A stretch of DNA of 64,000 nucleotides from a bacterium (GTDB lineage Bacteria > Armatimonadota > Zipacnadia > Zipacnadales > UBA11051): NCBI GenBank assembly GCA_021372615.1, contig JAJFUB010000021.1:1-64000 (forward strand), given 5' to 3'. Positions within the stretch are counted from its first letter, which is position 1, and every line of letters starts with the position of its first letter. The position numbers and the translations under genes are program-made. This document shows, piece by piece, positions 4,323 to 12,864 of this stretch. A model generated the notes under the pieces. That model made no database searches. It was not told where the DNA came from and saw only the letters and a program-made list of their open reading frames with translations.

Positions 4323-4349
4323 ATGTGGGAGCGGTCACCGACCGCGACC
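4323..4349. repeat. Solo unit of the 26/27-bp repeat, in a divergent promoter region
   Basis: GTGGGAGCGGTCACCGACCG is the same unit that is tandemly repeated 13 times at 7901-8246. Its core GCGGTC-ACC-GACCGC is a 6-bp hairpin. This copy lies in the 279-bp gap between the divergent starts at 4154 and 4434. I see no other element in that gap beyond the two ribosome sites. Confidence 0.7.
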
Positions 4350-4433: not shown

Positions 4434-7400
4434 ATGCGCCGGTGTCTCCTGTGCACTTCCCTTCTCGGAGCCCTCGCCATGGCCCACGCAGACCTGACCG
4501 TCCTGGATGCGCCCCTGTGGATCTTCCCGGACCAGATCGTCCGCGTCTGTCTGCAGCAGCCCGCCGGCTCCGGCCCCCTCACCGTCACTGCTCCGGCCAC
4601 CATGAAGCTGCTCGACCAGTGGGATCAGGACAGCATCCAGCGCTTCTACTTCCGCTCCCTCACCCCCGGCGACGCCACCCTCAAGTTCTCCGGCGCGGCC
4701 GGCCAAATGGAGATGAAGCTGGAGGTGCTCCCCTGGTCCGCCGTCTTCCAGGGCCGTCGCTACAAGGAGATCAGCCTGCCGCGCCTCTGGCCGCTGGACC
4801 AGCCCGCGTACGGCGACCTCAAGACCCGGCATACCCTCTACGACGAGGACAACCTGAAGTCCCGGCGCGGCCAGAAGCCCTCGGCCCTCGCCCTCAGGTG
4901 GCACGACCTGACGGACGACCAGATCTTCAACATGATCCCGGGCCCGTCGGTCCCGCGCACATGCCTGATGAGCCTGAGCTTTGAGGGCCTCGGCAAGGGC
5001 TGCCCCGTCTGCGGCATGGAGGTCTACAAGGGCCGCAGCGGCTTCTACCCCTGGCTTCTGGACCCCGCCGCGCACCCCTGGAAGGTCGGCTGCCCCAACT
5101 GCAAGAACTGGTTCCCCTCCAACGACTTCGCCCATGGCGACATGCACTCCGGCGACTTCCCCGATGACGGCTTCGGCTGTGAGCCGAGCAAGCCCGTGCT
5201 CGATAACAACGGCAAGCCCTGGCGCTTCCCCTTCATCGCCTACTACCACGAGTGGCAGCCCTACATGCGGGAGTTCACCCCCGGCTACCTCGAGTGCGCC
5301 AACGCCTACGCCGCCACCGGCGACAAGACCTATGCCCACAAGTCGGCCGTCGCCCTGTTTCGTTTCGCCGAGAGCATGTTGGACATGTCGGTCAACCTCA
5401 ACCACCGGAAGATGGCGGTCCGCGACGCCATACTGCGCGGCCCGGTCGGCGCCCCCACACCCCCCCGCCTCGCCGGCAGCTTCATGTACATCCAGCCCAA
5501 CTGGGACACTCCGCGCATGGAAGATGCGGCCCGCGCCTGGGACCTCATCTTCGACCAGCTCGAGGGCGACCAGGACCTCCTGGCCTTCTGCCAGTCCCAC
5601 CACCACCCGGAGATCACCTCGATCGCCGACTTCCGCCGTTTCGTGGACGCCGGCGTGCTGCGCGTCCCGATGCAGGCGTGTCTGGACAACGCCGTCGCCC
5701 GCAACTTCCCGATGGAGGAGACGACCCTCGCCACCCTCGCCCTGGCCCTGGGCACCGACAAGACCATGGACGTCGTGGACTGGCTGCTCAATGACAAGGG
5801 CATCCGCTTCGCGCTCACCAACAGCTTCTACCAGGACGGCAGCGCCTACGAATCCGAGGGCTACAACCACATCGCCATCCGGGACATGTCCCGCCTCTTC
5901 GAGACCCTCGAGGGCCTCCGCAAGCTGCACCCCGACCGGTTCCAGGCGCCGCGCTTCGTCTCGCTCCTGACCGACCCGCGCTACCGGCGCATGTTCGACT
6001 TCCCCCTCGAGTCCAGCCTCATCGGCCGCACCAGCCCCAACTGCGGCGACACCGGCAGTTGCGCCCCGACCACCCCGCTGCCCCCCGTCCAGGGCATCCC
6101 CTGCAACGCGGCGGACTGGCTGCAGGCCTACAAGGTCACCCGGGACCGACGGTTCCTGCAGGCGCTCTATGGCTCCGCCGGCAGCCTGCTGGCCAAGATC
6201 GCCGATCCGGCCGTCCGGGCCGAGGCCGAGAAGGCCGGCCAGGAGCTGGGCTGGCAGGTTCAGACCACGAGCAACTTCCTCGACGGCTACGGCTTCGCCA
6301 TCCTGCGGTCCGGGGCCGGTGACAACCAGCGCGCCCTGTGGCTCCTGTACGAGCAGTACATCCAGCACCGCCACCCCGACATGCTCACCTACGGCTTCGA
6401 GGCGATGCAGCGCAAGCTTCTGCCTGAACTCGGCTACCCGGTCGGGTGGAACTACGCCGGCCACTGGGAGACCAACTGGGGGACTCACTACGGGGCGAAG
6501 ATCGTCGGCACCAGCGCGTGGGCGTTCAACCGCGGCCGCCTCACCACTTTCGTGAACGCCGCCCCGGTCCAGGTCGCCGAGGCCGTCAGCACCCTCCCCG
6601 GCGCCCCCCAGACCATGCGCTCCCGTCTCATCGCCCTCGTGGACGTGGACGACAAGAACTGCTATGCCCTGTCTCTCGAGCGGGTGCGCGGCGGCACGGA
6701 GCACTTCGCCGTCTTCCACGGCCCCGACGGAGAGCCCGCCACCGAGGGCCTGAGCCTCCAGCCCTACGAGGGCACGGCGGCCGGGCCGGGCCACAGGTAC
6801 AACGACTTCACGGGCCTGGCTGACAAGGAACTCTCCTGCCTCGCGCTCATGGCCCGGCCGCGGTCCGCGGTCACGGAGGGCCCCTGGAGCCTGGATGTCG
6901 CGCTCCGCAACCAGCAGGACGTGCATCTGCGCATGACCAGCCTCTCGCCCCTGGCCTCCGAGGTCACCCTCGCCAACGGCCAGGCGCCGGGCGGCCGGTC
7001 CTCCTACGACCTCACCTTCGCCCTCCAGCACCAGAAGGGCGACGCCCCCCTGGCGCGCCAGTACCTCAGCCTCCTGGAGCCCTACCAGGGGACGCGCGTC
7101 ATCCAGCAGATCGAGCCCCTGCCTGTCACGGTCGTCACGCCGGGGCCGCAGCCACCGTCCTTTGAGCCGCTGGCCCTGCGCGTCACCGGCCCAGACTTCA
7201 CCGACACCCTCATCATCCAGGCCCAGCCCGGCCCGACCGTTCAGGCCGGCGGCCTCACCTGCGACGGCCTCCTGGGCTTCCGCCGGGAACGCCGGGGCGC
7301 CGCTGCCCTGCAGACACTCATCCGCGGCACGAAACTCCAGGCCGCCGCCGCTCAGGTCGCGCTCCCCTGCGCCGACTTCCGTGGCACGATCACGGCCTGC

Positions 7401-7895
7401 GACTGGGCCAAGTCCACCATTGACTGCCGCTGGGACCCCGCGGCCGCCCCGACCGACCTCCAGTCGCTCGTGGGCCGGCACGTGCTGCTGAGCAACCCGG
7501 CGGGCAGTGCCGCCTCATACCGGGTCCAGTCCGCCACGGCCCTCCCCGGCGGCTGCCGCCTGGCCTTCGCCCTCGACCCCCGCCTGGGGGAGGGCTTCGT
7601 GAAGTCCTGCGCCGATGGCACTGTCGTCAGCACGATCAGCCTCATCAAGGCCTGCTACCCCTACTACGCCGGCAAGACCCTGGCCAACGAAGACAACAGC
7701 ATGACCTACCGCCTTAAGGACGTCGTGCGCGGCGCCAACGCGGTCATTGACGAGGCCCAGCACGGCAAGGTCCCGGCGGCGACGCTCCAGACTCAGTTCA
7801 CGGACCGGGACGGCGACGGCCTGGTTCGCTACGTCATCTACGACTACGGCGTGGGCGATCAGGTGACGGTGGACAACTTCGCCGTCACACACTGA
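4434..7895 (+). CDS. Secreted heparinase II/III-like polysaccharide lyase
   Basis: 1153 residues. The start at MRRCLLCTSLLGALAMAHA (4434) has a signal peptide and a GAGGT ribosome site 8 bases upstream. After a short beta domain comes a zinc-ribbon-like pair, CPVCG and CPNCK, about 40 residues apart. An alpha-helical toroid follows (roughly residues 250-620), including SAYESEGYNHIAIRDMSR, of the heparinase/alginate-lyase (alpha/alpha)n type. The second half is beta-rich (DVDDKNCYALSLERV and after), as in the heparinase II/III C-terminal sheet. The last ~150 residues look like an extra beta-sandwich. The CPxC pair in front of the toroid recurs in heparinase-like proteins of Lentisphaerae and Planctomycetota, from what I recall. 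The probable substrate is a uronic-acid polysaccharide; the exact glycan is unknown. Confidence 0.75.
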   Translation: MRRCLLCTSLLGALAMAHADLTVLDAPLWIFPDQIVRVCLQQPAGSGPLTVTAPATMKLLDQWDQDSIQRFYFRSLTPGDATLKFSGAAGQMEMKLEVLPWSAVFQGRRYKEISLPRLWPLDQPAYGDLKTRHTLYDEDNLKSRRGQKPSALALRWHDLTDDQIFNMIPGPSVPRTCLMSLSFEGLGKGCPVCGMEVYKGRSGFYPWLLDPAAHPWKVGCPNCKNWFPSNDFAHGDMHSGDFPDDGFGCEPSKPVLDNNGKPWRFPFIAYYHEWQPYMREFTPGYLECANAYAATGDKTYAHKSAVALFRFAESMLDMSVNLNHRKMAVRDAILRGPVGAPTPPRLAGSFMYIQPNWDTPRMEDAARAWDLIFDQLEGDQDLLAFCQSHHHPEITSIADFRRFVDAGVLRVPMQACLDNAVARNFPMEETTLATLALALGTDKTMDVVDWLLNDKGIRFALTNSFYQDGSAYESEGYNHIAIRDMSRLFETLEGLRKLHPDRFQAPRFVSLLTDPRYRRMFDFPLESSLIGRTSPNCGDTGSCAPTTPLPPVQGIPCNAADWLQAYKVTRDRRFLQALYGSAGSLLAKIADPAVRAEAEKAGQELGWQVQTTSNFLDGYGFAILRSGAGDNQRALWLLYEQYIQHRHPDMLTYGFEAMQRKLLPELGYPVGWNYAGHWETNWGTHYGAKIVGTSAWAFNRGRLTTFVNAAPVQVAEAVSTLPGAPQTMRSRLIALVDVDDKNCYALSLERVRGGTEHFAVFHGPDGEPATEGLSLQPYEGTAAGPGHRYNDFTGLADKELSCLALMARPRSAVTEGPWSLDVALRNQQDVHLRMTSLSPLASEVTLANGQAPGGRSSYDLTFALQHQKGDAPLARQYLSLLEPYQGTRVIQQIEPLPVTVVTPGPQPPSFEPLALRVTGPDFTDTLIIQAQPGPTVQAGGLTCDGLLGFRRERRGAAALQTLIRGTKLQAAAAQVALPCADFRGTITACDWAKSTIDCRWDPAAAPTDLQSLVGRHVLLSNPAGSAASYRVQSATALPGGCRLAFALDPRLGEGFVKSCADGTVVSTISLIKACYPYYAGKTLANEDNSMTYRLKDVVRGANAVIDEAQHGKVPAATLQTQFTDRDGDGLVRYVIYDYGVGDQVTVDNFAVTH

Positions 7896-7900
7896 CCGTC

Positions 7901-8246
7901 TGTGGGAGCGGTCACCACCCGCGGCCTGTGGGAGCGGTCACCGACCGCGATGCTGTGGGAGCGGTCACCGACCGCGATACCGTGGGAACGATCACCACCT
8001 GCGGTCTGTGGGAGCGGTCACCGACCGCGAAGCCGTAGGAGCGGTCACCGACCGCGATGCCGTGGGAGCGGTCACCGACCGCGAAGCCGTAGGAGCGATC
8101 ACCACCCGCGGTCTGTGGGAGCGGTCACCGACCGCGAAGCCGTAGGAGCGGTCACCACCCGCGGTCTGTGGGAGCGGTCACCGACCGCGAAGCCGTAGGA
8201 GCGATCACCACCCGCGGTCTGTGGGAGCGGTCACCGACCGCGACCA
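7901..8246. repeat. Tandem array of 13 hairpin-forming 26/27-bp units
   Basis: Thirteen end-to-end units start at 7901, 7927, 7954, 7981, 8007, 8034, 8061, 8088, 8114, 8141, 8167, 8194 and 8220. Consensus: [TC]GT[GA]GGAGCG[GA]TCACC, then either GACCGCGAxGC (27 bp) or ACCCGCGGTC (26 bp). The first type holds the palindrome GCGGTC-ACC-GACCGC. In the second half the two types alternate, giving a 53-bp higher-order period that shows growth by duplication of unit pairs. The array fills nearly the whole gap between the stop at 7895 and the ribosome site at 8260. There are no unique spacers, so it is not a CRISPR. Confidence 0.95.
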
Positions 8247-8274
8247 TGCCGCAGTCCTCAGGAGGGTGCCCGAG

Positions 8275-11200
8275 ATGCGACGCCAGGTGCTGACGTGCGC
8301 GATGTTGGGTTTGCTCCTGCAGTGCTCCGTCTGCGCCTTGGCGCAGACCACCCCCTGGCAGGTGGACCTGGCCGGGGAGTGGCGCTTCCACACCGGCGAC
8401 AATCCGGCGTGGGCGCTGCCCGGGTGTGACGACAGCAAGTGGGACCGCCTCCATGCCCCCGCGCTCTGGGACAGCGGCGGCTACGCCAACTACGACGGCT
8501 ACGGCTGGTATCGCCGCACCTTCGCGGCCCCGGCCGGCATCGCCGCCCACCCCGTGCTGGTCGAGATCGGCGGCGTGGATGACGACGACTGGGTATACCT
8601 GAACGGCAAGCTGGTGGGTGAGGGCAAGGGCTGCTACAAGCGCCGGCTCTACCGCGTTCCCGCCGGCCTCCTCCACGAGGGCGAGAACCTGATCGCCGTG
8701 CGCATCTACGACGGCAGCATGGGCGGAGGGCTGGCCGTGGGCCCCCTGACTATCCGTCAGGAGTCGCTGGCCGACCGTGTCGAGGTCACCTCCGTCCGCC
8801 TCTCCCAGCCCACGCCCACCCACCCGCGCATGTCCCTGGAAGTGGGCCTCACCAGCCGCAGCGCCACCCCCCCGCAGGTGCAACTGCACGTGCGGCTCAC
8901 CGACTATGTCCGGCGCGAACTGGCCGCCGCCGATCGCGAGCTGTCCGTGCCCCCCGGCGGCGCCGTCACCGCGACCTTCCCCTTCGCCGGCGGCGAATGC
9001 CTCGATTATCGCCTCTCGCTGGCCCTGACGCAGGGGGCTGACCGGTGGGAGGGCTTCCGCTACCTGCAGGCCGATGCCCTGCGCGGCCCGCGGCGGGTCT
9101 GGCTGCTCAGCGGCACCTGGGACTTCCTGCCGGTGGAGCAGCTTGCCCCGACCCCGCCGTCGGGCGTATGGCAGACCACCATTGTCCCGAACGCCGCCTG
9201 GGGCGGCTGGCGCGGCCCGGAGCACAGCGCGTGGTACCGCCGCAAGTTCGACGTGCCGGCCGACCTCGGCCCGCAGCGGCTGGTGTTGCAGTTCGCCGCC
9301 GTCGCCCACGGGTGCGAGGTGCTCGTCAACGGCACGCGCGTCGGCTCGCATCTGGGCGGGTTCGAGCCGTTCAGCTTCGACCTGACCTCCGTCGTGCGAC
9401 CCGGTGAGAACGAGCTATGTGTCGGGGTGACCGACTGGACGGCGGGCCTGAAGCCGGGGGTGCCGGTGCCGCCCGATCCCGAGAAGCTGCCGGCCGGCTG
9501 CATGATGATCCCCTTCGGCACCCGGGCCGCCAGTATCCGCGGCCTCTGGCAGGACGTCACGCTCGAGGCCCGCGCCCCGGTTGCCGTCGAGGCCACGAAG
9601 ATCACCACCTCCGTCCGCGCGGGGACCCTCGGCGTCGCGCTCACACTGCGCAACGACGAGGCCCGGCCCCGCACGGTCAGCGTCGCCCCACAGGTCTGCG
9701 ACGCAGGCCAGCCGGTCTTCTCCCTGCCGCCGCGCCAGGTCACCGTCCCGCCCGCGGGCACTGTCACGCTGCAGTGGCAGCGCCCCTGGGCCAGGCCCCG
9801 CCTCTGGTGGCCCTTCGACCCGCACCTGTACGACCTGCGCACCGAGGTGAAGCAGGACGGCGCCCTCACCGACCTGCACCACACTCGCTTCGGCTTCCGC
9901 GAGTTCTGGACTGACGGCCCGGACTACCGGCTCAACGGGCGCATCTTCCGGCTGCGCGGCCTGGTCTGCGCCCCGCGCCCCGAGTCCCCCGAGGCTCTCC
10001 GGCGGTACTTCCTGACCGGCATGGAGCGCACCAACTTCACGCTGGTGCGCCATCATATGTTCCCCCGGCCCCGCTACTTCTACGACCTCGCCGATGAGCT
10101 GGGCATGTGCCTGAAGGACGAGAGCGCCTTCTACTGCGCCGCGAGCAGCTATGCCCTCACCGACGACGCCTTCTGGGCGAACATGGGGCGCCATGTCGAG
10201 GGCATGGTCCGCCGCTCCTGGAACCACCCCTCGCTGTGCCTCTGGAGCACCGAAAACGAGATCCTGCACTGCGGCGGCAGCAACACCCCCGGGGCCGATG
10301 CCCGCATCTTCGAACTGGGGCAACTCATCTCCCGGCTCGACCCCACCCGCCCCGTGGAGTTCGAGGGCGACGGCGATGTCGTGGGCCGTGCCGCCACTGC
10401 CAACATCCACTACCCCCGCGAGTTCGGCTGCCACGACCACAACCTGTGGCCCAACGACTCGTGGTGGCTGGGGCAGGAGGGCAATGACCGCTGGCCCCGG
10501 GACCTGGTCTGGAAGCACGACAAGCCCCTCGTCATGGGCGAGTTCTGCCACTACCCCTACAGCCGCCCGCCCGGCGGCGTCTCCATCTTCGTGGGCGATG
10601 ACGCCTACCGCTCCAAGGACACCGAGCGGGCCGCGCACGTGATGGGCGTGCGCTTTGTCTGTGAGGGCGCGCGCTGGGCCGGCGTCGCCGGCCTCAACCC
10701 CTGGGTCGGCGACCCCGTCTACGGCGAACGCTGCCTCGCCCCGGTCACGGTCATCCTCCGTGAGTGGGATCACCAGTTCTGGGCCGGCGAGACGGTCCCC
10801 CGCACGCTCCTCACCCTCAATGACACCCTCGCTACGCGCCGCCTCGAGCTGCGCGTGGCGATCCTGGACGCTCCCCCCGGCGCCTTCTCCTGGACCGCCT
10901 CACGCACCCTCGAGCCCGGCGCGCGCTGGGAGGCGACGGTGCCCGTGAAGGTGCCCGACCGCCCCGGCCGCTATCGCCTCGTCGCCCGCGTCCTGCAGGA
11001 TGGACGGCAGCTCTACAGCGAGGAGCGCCCGCTGGTGGTGGCCGCGCGCGCACCGCTGGCGGCCCCGGCGGGCCTGCGCGTCGCCCTGTTTGACCCGGCG
11101 GGCCGCAGCGGACCGGCCCTGGCAGCGGCCGGCCTCCAGTCGTCGCCCCTCGCGGCCCTGGATGACGCCCCCCTGCGCGCCGTGGACCTGCTCATCCTCG

Positions 11201-12864
11201 GCGCCGACGCCTGGACCTCGGCGCCCGACGCGGGGCGGGACTGCCTGCCCCAGTTTGTCTCCGCGGGCGGCAAGGTGCTCGTCCTGCCGCAGACGACGCT
11301 GCCCGGCTGGCTGCCGTCCGGCGTGGTGCTCGACAGGACCCGCGGCGCCACCATGACCTACGAGCGCTGGCCCGGCCATCCGCTGCTGGCGGGGCTGGAC
11401 AGCGCGGGACGCGACCTGTGCTGGTGGCGCGGCGACCACTTCGTCGCCCACGACCTGCTGCGCAAGCCGCAGGCAGGCAACTTCCGCATCCTCGCCGAAG
11501 CCGGGGGCAAGGGCGGACTGCAGTGGACGCCGCTGCTCGAACTCGACGCCGGCCAGGGCTGGTGGCTTCTGTGCCAGTACCTGGTGGACAGCAAGCTGCC
11601 GGGCGAGCCCGCGGCCCGCGCCCTGCTGCAAAACGCCCTCACCTACGCGGCGCAGCCCGCCGCCCCGCTGCAGCGCCGCGTGGCGGTCCTCGGCTCACCG
11701 ACACTGCTGCAATACCTCGCCGGGCTGGGCCTCGCCGCCGACGAACTGGGCGGGCAGTCGCCTGACGGCTACGACCTCATCATCGCCGAGGGCGCTGCGC
11801 TCACCCCGCAGACCGCCGCGGCCCTCCGCCAGTGCGCCGAGGCCGGCAAGACCGTCTGGCTCTACGCCGCCGGGGGGGCCGCCCCGGGGCTGCTACAGGC
11901 CCTCGTCCCCGGGTGCCAGGGGTCTGCCGCCGTCAACGCGCACGGGCGCGCCGTCAAGCTCGCGCACGACGGCCTGATGGCCGGCATCTCCAACGCCGAT
12001 CTCTTCTGGTACCGCGAGGACTGCTGGTACGAGGACTGGGAGGGGCGCGGCACCGGCCTGGCCGACGAGCCCTGCACCACGCAACTGCAACTGGACGCCA
12101 CGGCCCGCGTCTACGCCGAGCCCGCCTGCGTGGCCGAAGTCCCGGTGGGCAAAGGGCGCGTGGTACTGACCACGCTTCGCCTCGATGAGGCGCAGCCCGT
12201 CGTGGCCGCGAAGGCCCGCCGCCTGGGCTCGACTCTGCTCACCAACCTCGGCGTCCCGCTGGGCCGCCGGCAGGACGACCTCACCGGCCTCAAGCAGCGC
12301 CCCCTGGACCTGCAGCGCTGCTTCACCGCGACCTTGCGCGACGAGACCGCCGACGACGGCCAGGGCGGCTGGACCGATCAGGGCGCTCAGGACCTCCGGG
12401 CCCTACCTGCCGGCGCGCTCCGGGCGGCTGGCATGACCTTCGACGTGCGCCCGGGCTGCATAGCCCTGCGCTCGGCGGCGCACCTGCGCTTCCAGCCGGA
12501 CAGGGTGAGGGACATCCCGGTGGGTGGACCGTGTGTCGCCCTGCACCTGCTGCACGCCGCCGCTTGGGCCGGCCCCGAGGGCACGAGCGTGGCGCGGCTA
12601 CGGGTCGTCTATCAGGATGGCAAGGAGGCCGTGGTGCCCCTCGTCACAGGGGTGAACATCGCTGACTGGTGGACCCCCGCGGACCTGCCCCAGGCCCGCG
12701 TCGCCTGGCGCGGCCCGTCCGCCAACGGCCGGATCGTCGGCGTGTACGCCACCACCTGGCGCAACCCGCGCCCCACCGCCCCCATCGCCACCGTGGCCGT
12801 CGAGAGCGCCGGCGGCGACGCGACCTACATGCTTCTGGCCCTCACCTCCGGCGAGAAGCCCTGA
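8275..12864 (+). CDS. Giant secreted GH2-family glycoside hydrolase
   Basis: 1529 residues. The start at MRRQVLTCAMLGLLLQC (8275) has a perfect AGGAGGG site 8 bases upstream and a signal peptide. The order is: a GH2 sugar-binding domain (about 30-160, WYRRTFAAPAG, VYLNGKLVGEG); a beta linker; a second jelly roll (about 280-400, WYRRKFDVPADLG, LVNGTRVGSHLGG); an Ig-like domain; and the GH2 barrel after FGFREFWTDG. Predicted acid/base is E662 in LWSTENEIL and nucleophile E756 in LVMGEFCHY. The last ~600 residues include two glutamine-amidotransferase-like Rossmann segments (LLILGADAW, GGKVLVLPQ) and a terminal beta domain. Known GH2 activities include beta-galactosidase, mannosidase and glucuronidase; which applies here is not readable. 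It is adjacent and similar to the next gene. Confidence 0.83.
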   Translation: MRRQVLTCAMLGLLLQCSVCALAQTTPWQVDLAGEWRFHTGDNPAWALPGCDDSKWDRLHAPALWDSGGYANYDGYGWYRRTFAAPAGIAAHPVLVEIGGVDDDDWVYLNGKLVGEGKGCYKRRLYRVPAGLLHEGENLIAVRIYDGSMGGGLAVGPLTIRQESLADRVEVTSVRLSQPTPTHPRMSLEVGLTSRSATPPQVQLHVRLTDYVRRELAAADRELSVPPGGAVTATFPFAGGECLDYRLSLALTQGADRWEGFRYLQADALRGPRRVWLLSGTWDFLPVEQLAPTPPSGVWQTTIVPNAAWGGWRGPEHSAWYRRKFDVPADLGPQRLVLQFAAVAHGCEVLVNGTRVGSHLGGFEPFSFDLTSVVRPGENELCVGVTDWTAGLKPGVPVPPDPEKLPAGCMMIPFGTRAASIRGLWQDVTLEARAPVAVEATKITTSVRAGTLGVALTLRNDEARPRTVSVAPQVCDAGQPVFSLPPRQVTVPPAGTVTLQWQRPWARPRLWWPFDPHLYDLRTEVKQDGALTDLHHTRFGFREFWTDGPDYRLNGRIFRLRGLVCAPRPESPEALRRYFLTGMERTNFTLVRHHMFPRPRYFYDLADELGMCLKDESAFYCAASSYALTDDAFWANMGRHVEGMVRRSWNHPSLCLWSTENEILHCGGSNTPGADARIFELGQLISRLDPTRPVEFEGDGDVVGRAATANIHYPREFGCHDHNLWPNDSWWLGQEGNDRWPRDLVWKHDKPLVMGEFCHYPYSRPPGGVSIFVGDDAYRSKDTERAAHVMGVRFVCEGARWAGVAGLNPWVGDPVYGERCLAPVTVILREWDHQFWAGETVPRTLLTLNDTLATRRLELRVAILDAPPGAFSWTASRTLEPGARWEATVPVKVPDRPGRYRLVARVLQDGRQLYSEERPLVVAARAPLAAPAGLRVALFDPAGRSGPALAAAGLQSSPLAALDDAPLRAVDLLILGADAWTSAPDAGRDCLPQFVSAGGKVLVLPQTTLPGWLPSGVVLDRTRGATMTYERWPGHPLLAGLDSAGRDLCWWRGDHFVAHDLLRKPQAGNFRILAEAGGKGGLQWTPLLELDAGQGWWLLCQYLVDSKLPGEPAARALLQNALTYAAQPAAPLQRRVAVLGSPTLLQYLAGLGLAADELGGQSPDGYDLIIAEGAALTPQTAAALRQCAEAGKTVWLYAAGGAAPGLLQALVPGCQGSAAVNAHGRAVKLAHDGLMAGISNADLFWYREDCWYEDWEGRGTGLADEPCTTQLQLDATARVYAEPACVAEVPVGKGRVVLTTLRLDEAQPVVAAKARRLGSTLLTNLGVPLGRRQDDLTGLKQRPLDLQRCFTATLRDETADDGQGGWTDQGAQDLRALPAGALRAAGMTFDVRPGCIALRSAAHLRFQPDRVRDIPVGGPCVALHLLHAAAWAGPEGTSVARLRVVYQDGKEAVVPLVTGVNIADWWTPADLPQARVAWRGPSANGRIVGVYATTWRNPRPTAPIATVAVESAGGDATYMLLALTSGEKP

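Follow-up and report, generated by a model that had tools for sequence, protein, structure and literature searches.

A gap of 379 bp in the window, a stretch of 64,000 nucleotides from a bacterium of the Armatimonadota, is filled by a tandem array of small hairpins that stands just upstream of a glycoside hydrolase gene. We asked what these hairpins are, how the array arose, and whether it serves the neighbouring genes. As the preliminary description had it, the array has 13 direct units in a gap of that length (7896-8274), counted from the stop at 7895 to the best-scoring start, an ATG at 8275 that is preceded by a good ribosome site, AGGAGG. Both bordering genes are co-oriented. The window holds 14 matches to GTRGGAGCGRTCACCRMCCGCG, against 0.03 expected from shuffles: 13 direct ones at 7902-8242 and one at 4325, which is the solo copy previously placed near 4323-4349. 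The features are as follows.

4325..4346, + strand: solo REP of the array's family, in a divergent intergenic gap
4434..7895, + strand: upstream gene of about 1153 amino acids, start uncertain, whose stop codon precedes the array by 6 nt; a Pfam search at E<=0.001 gave no match
7902..8242, + strand: REP tandem array of 13 head-to-tail units; units start at 7902, 7928, 7955, 7982, 8008, 8035, 8062, 8089, 8115, 8142, 8168, 8195 and 8221, and the last core ends at 8242
7902..7923, + strand: unit 1, variant core CACCACCCGCG, broken stem
7982..8003, + strand: unit 4, variant core, the most degenerate of the array, stem lost
8062..8220, + strand: units 7-12, three 53-bp dimers (27-bp intact unit plus 26-bp variant unit), a higher-order duplication
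8221..8242, + strand: unit 13, hairpin intact, with ACC behind it, as is the case for most dispersed copies
8275..12864, + strand: downstream gene of 1529 amino acids with glycoside hydrolase family 2 (GH2) domains

The spacings from unit to unit are 26, 27, 27, 26, 27, 27, 27, 26, 27, 26, 27 and 26 bp, and the linkers between cores, 4-5 nt long, are themselves repeated. An alternation of 27 and 26 bp with a 53-bp period had been ascribed to the whole array; it holds for units 7-13, the 3' half, and not elsewhere. The hairpin GCGGTC-ACC-GACCGC, thought to be present in each unit, is intact in eight of the 13, and in units 1, 4, 8, 10 and 12 the sequence CACCACC(C/T)GCG destroys the upper stem. 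This variant core has five copies in the genome, every one of them inside the array. The array resembles a CRISPR in having direct repeats within an intergenic gap; unlike a CRISPR, it has short repeated linkers in place of unique spacers of similar length, and about 300 dispersed copies of its unit occur in the genome, so that the earlier exclusion of a CRISPR was correct.

The unit has the anatomy GTRG-GA-stem-ACC-stem-GA with a 6-bp stem, here mostly GTGG-GA-GCGGTC-ACC-GACCGC-GA. At two or fewer mismatches the 6.4-Mb genome contains 313 copies, 165 forward and 148 reverse, while the reversed pattern, used as a control, gave no match genome-wide. Among 112 sampled copies the head was GTGG in 94 and GTAG in nine. 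Outside the array, copies of the family are single or paired. Head-to-head pairs within 30 bp (REPINs), with GTGG outward and a variable spacer, number 26 genome-wide, and this is the commonest pair type, accounting for 14 of the 22 dimers in a sampled 1.1 Mb whose stretches were chosen around REP matches, which biases any density per Mb. The array itself runs head-to-tail and hence is not a REPIN; REPINs are a property of the family. Within the sampled stretches, nine of 38 clusters fell in genes called by a simple codon-usage caller, whose individual intragenic calls need checking, against 31.6 +/- 2.2 expected. A palindrome of 20-40 bp with an unpaired GTAG-like tetranucleotide (GTRG) at one end, in high copy number, mostly extragenic and with compensatory stem change, is what defines GTAG-class REPs, and the array units are copies of such a REP. 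The view that this was a hairpin repeat of the extragenic type was right.

Some copies do lie in genes. One is inserted in frame in trpE (L103:7200-7221, C58), and the peptide that it encodes coincides with a gap when the protein is aligned to solved anthranilate synthases. A UvrA-like gene (L108:3214-5021, C47) carries REPs in frame at two places, which matches published REPs in uvrA genes.

It had also been claimed that all copies lie directly upstream of the starts of secreted glycan enzymes. This impression came from too narrow a view. A stop codon stands 6 nt ahead of the array, the solo copy sits between divergent genes, and some 300 more copies stand beside unrelated genes or within genes. 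The genes that neighbour or host them include those for TrpE, UvrA-like, enolase-like, SDR and HAD proteins, and on listing them we rejected a link to glycan genes. In the sampled 1.1 Mb, 14 copies were nearer to an upstream stop and eight nearer to a start (p=0.29), and orientation relative to genes was the same in seven cases, opposite in five and mixed in ten (p=0.77). A genome-wide search for the core had been proposed, with random spread and a lack of strand or start bias counting against the claim. The copies turned out to be strongly intergenic, yet without start or strand bias, and with neighbours and hosts that are functionally unrelated, which argues against a regulatory device for glycan genes.

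We therefore considered what else the array could do where it stands. The hairpins could form a functional RNA element that protects the 3' end of the upstream mRNA or attenuates transcription into the GH2 gene. The co-oriented genes and the position of the array right behind a stop codon suit such a role, roles of REPs in termination and mRNA stabilisation have been hypothesised (PMC3733652), and the predicted folding of the gap is somewhat stronger than that of its shuffles (z -2.35). However, five of the 13 hairpins are broken, a terminator scan of the array found no intrinsic-terminator tail (T-tract), contrary to the transcript-end element suggested before, an Rfam search of the array gave no match, and the family has no significant strand or stop bias genome-wide. 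We consider a dedicated RNA function unlikely. Given the folding of the gap, incidental effects on mRNA are possible, and side effects on RNA stability or through copy-number variation are likewise possible for this array.

How the array grew can be read from its units and linkers. Direct arrays elsewhere in the genome each repeat their own flanking linker, with periods of 44 bp (C40), 46 bp (C92) and 58 bp (C10). The confinement of the variant core to the array, together with these locus-specific linkers, points to local tandem duplication, by which the array most likely grew after REP insertion, as judged from sequence. In this scheme the REP would be a non-autonomous hairpin that a RAYT (TnpA-REP, of the Y1 HUH family) mobilises in single-stranded form. 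One or more copies would have landed in the gap behind the gene that ends at 7895, and slippage, or unequal exchange among hairpins in direct order, would then have expanded them. The block duplicated first would be a REP with its 4-5 nt linker, and the block duplicated later a 53-bp pair, which would have carried the stem-breaking mutation along.

Contig C73 ends in another tight array (L100:15-171), which comprises six or more 27-bp units and shares both these units and the AAGCC/ACGCC linkers with the array at 7902-8242. Purely independent local duplication is insufficient to explain this sharing; it would require in addition that one of the arrays gave rise to the other, or that the linker belongs to a longer unit. 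In one reading frame the C73 array encodes a repeated VGAVTDRD(A/E) nonapeptide.

The array might instead have grown by repeated RAYT-mediated insertion of REPs beside old ones. Enzymes of the RAYT type are present in the genome, and the ACC behind the last unit is the same as at most dispersed copies, both of which fit such a process. It would not account for a variant unit that occurs five times in the array and nowhere else, nor for linkers common to the units within arrays, and we regard it as improbable. A variable-number switch, in which the copy number would differ between cells and tune the GH2 gene, draws on the ability of such direct repeats to expand and contract and on the nested duplication seen here; we hold it to be very improbable, since comparable arrays occur at unrelated places (C73, C40, C10 and C92) and a promoter scan of the gap, a weak test, found no promoter-like site. 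Least credible of all is selection, upstream of glycan genes, for an array that binds a protein such as a regulator or a nucleoid protein. The 26-27 bp spacing is regular and E. coli BIMEs bind host proteins (PMC2817692), but copies lie in both orientations within the genes for TrpE, UvrA-like and other proteins and beside unrelated genes, and the stem co-varies as expected of a hairpin. Taken as a whole, the array is very probably a mobile REP that was duplicated in tandem locally, a side product of a selfish element that non-coding space tolerates, and not a device for glycan genes.

Whether this family has relatives was examined in other genomes. A search of 100 relatives gave no match to the exact family, which was near chance level across the order when more mismatches were allowed. 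An exact 22-mer scan of genome contigs returned six stretches, in unrelated bacteria. In Methylotenera (L039, L040, L043) the identical core stands on a scaffold that also carries other GTAG REPs, and possession of the core therefore does not identify the window's species. The genome of a sister genus (G001) has 39 copies of GTAGGAGCG(C/G)TCACCAGA(G/C)CGCG, which differ from the window's family at one loop base and, in some copies, also at one stem pair, where G-C replaces C-G. Across the copies of G001 and of the window's genome (G000), both sides of the stem had changed in 11 cells of the pair counts, a score that none of 500 shuffles reached, although these shuffles leave relatedness in. 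On sequence grounds, the G001 family is homologous to that of the window, with a compensatory stem swap.

Three of these homologous REPs in G001 flank a gene whose score for the NCBIfam model REP_Tyr_transpos is 106.8 bits (cut-off 80). This sister-genus RAYT (L127:1366-1968) reads PDHLRLV where its relatives carry the HxH motif, the second His being replaced by Arg, and it may for that reason be catalytically impaired. The window's genome has seven Y1_Tnp genes. One of them, a RAYT gene at G000:C34:112748-113524 (L085 12748-13524), is bracketed by REPINs of GTAGGAGCGCCAGCTTCCAGCTGGC, a second GTAG REP family with 79 copies and with compensatory changes in its stems CCAGC/CCGGC. The C34 enzyme scores 81.3 against the cut-off of 80 of the NCBIfam model for REP-associated tyrosine transposases, and among solved structures it matches E. 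coli TnpA-REP best (4er8, 1e-5). A REP cluster lies 2.4 kb from a RAYT on C34; as a cognate pair the two were rejected, the distance being not significant given the cluster density. The six further Y1-transposase genes (L031-L036) include several (among them L031, L032, L034 and L036) that are bracketed by inverted hairpin repeats of their own, which suggests that a number of REP-like families exist side by side in the genome. A 14-bp tandem array (GCATGGACATCACA) at L031:1956-2137 adjoins a Y1-transposase gene.

The GGTCACC-type REP flanks none of the seven Y1 genes of the G000 assembly, and a REPtron was accordingly not found for it there; linkage to a RAYT was found for the homologous REP in G001 and for the second G000 family. 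Because homologous REPs flank the G001 enzyme, the window's family is RAYT-linked by homology. A close orthologue of that enzyme was not detected in G000, where the best match stood at 36%. The cognate enzyme may have been lost, may be a RAYT acting in trans, or may sit in an assembly gap, as many contigs of the assembly end in REPs, at which the assembly breaks.

The family closely resembles the GTAG-1 type REPs of Pseudomonas and other bacteria (PMC3733652), which have a terminal GTRG (GTAG or GTGG), an unpaired GA, a short GC-rich stem, a loop of 3 nt and an unpaired tail, and which occur in hundreds of mostly intergenic copies with head-to-head dimers and gene insertions, including some in uvrA. 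It differs from them in its own stem and loop sequence, its majority head GTGG and its bacterial lineage, though families headed by GTGG have been described (PMC3733652). P. fluorescens SBW25 likewise has inverted pairs and, less often, ordered arrays of as many as 12 direct REPs; in those arrays the spacings between the two REP types are 72 and 112 bp, whereas here the units abut with linkers of 4-5 nt (PMC3116915). As in the TnpA-REP/RAYT systems (E. coli 4er8; PMC8266576), RAYT genes are present, one with GTAG REPINs in this genome and one with homologous REPs in G001, but no RAYT in this assembly is flanked by the window's exact REP.

The prevalence of GTGG raises one further point. A CC just after the hairpin (A-CC, +1 to +3) is found in 50 of 89 copies of the window's family, and is much rarer at that position in the GTAG copies of the sister genus. 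A switch from GTGG to CC was made in vitro for a Marinomonas enzyme (PMC8266576). It is conceivable, but doubtful, that the guide tetranucleotide of the family changed from GTAG, as in the sister genus, to GTGG, and that a conserved CC after the hairpin came with this change. Such a shift, if true, would mean that REP cleavage had been retargeted in nature in a way that matches the Marinomonas in vitro switch.

A literature search for REPs in Armatimonadetes found none. The present family extends the REP/RAYT-type systems to a lineage distant from Pseudomonas and the enterobacteria, which are the well-studied cases, and the homologous REPs of the sister genus display a compensatory stem change. 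The array itself illustrates clearly how a REP array can expand, here most likely by duplication at one locus, with a defective hairpin copied along with the rest, and it cautions against reading such arrays as regulators of the genes that they adjoin.
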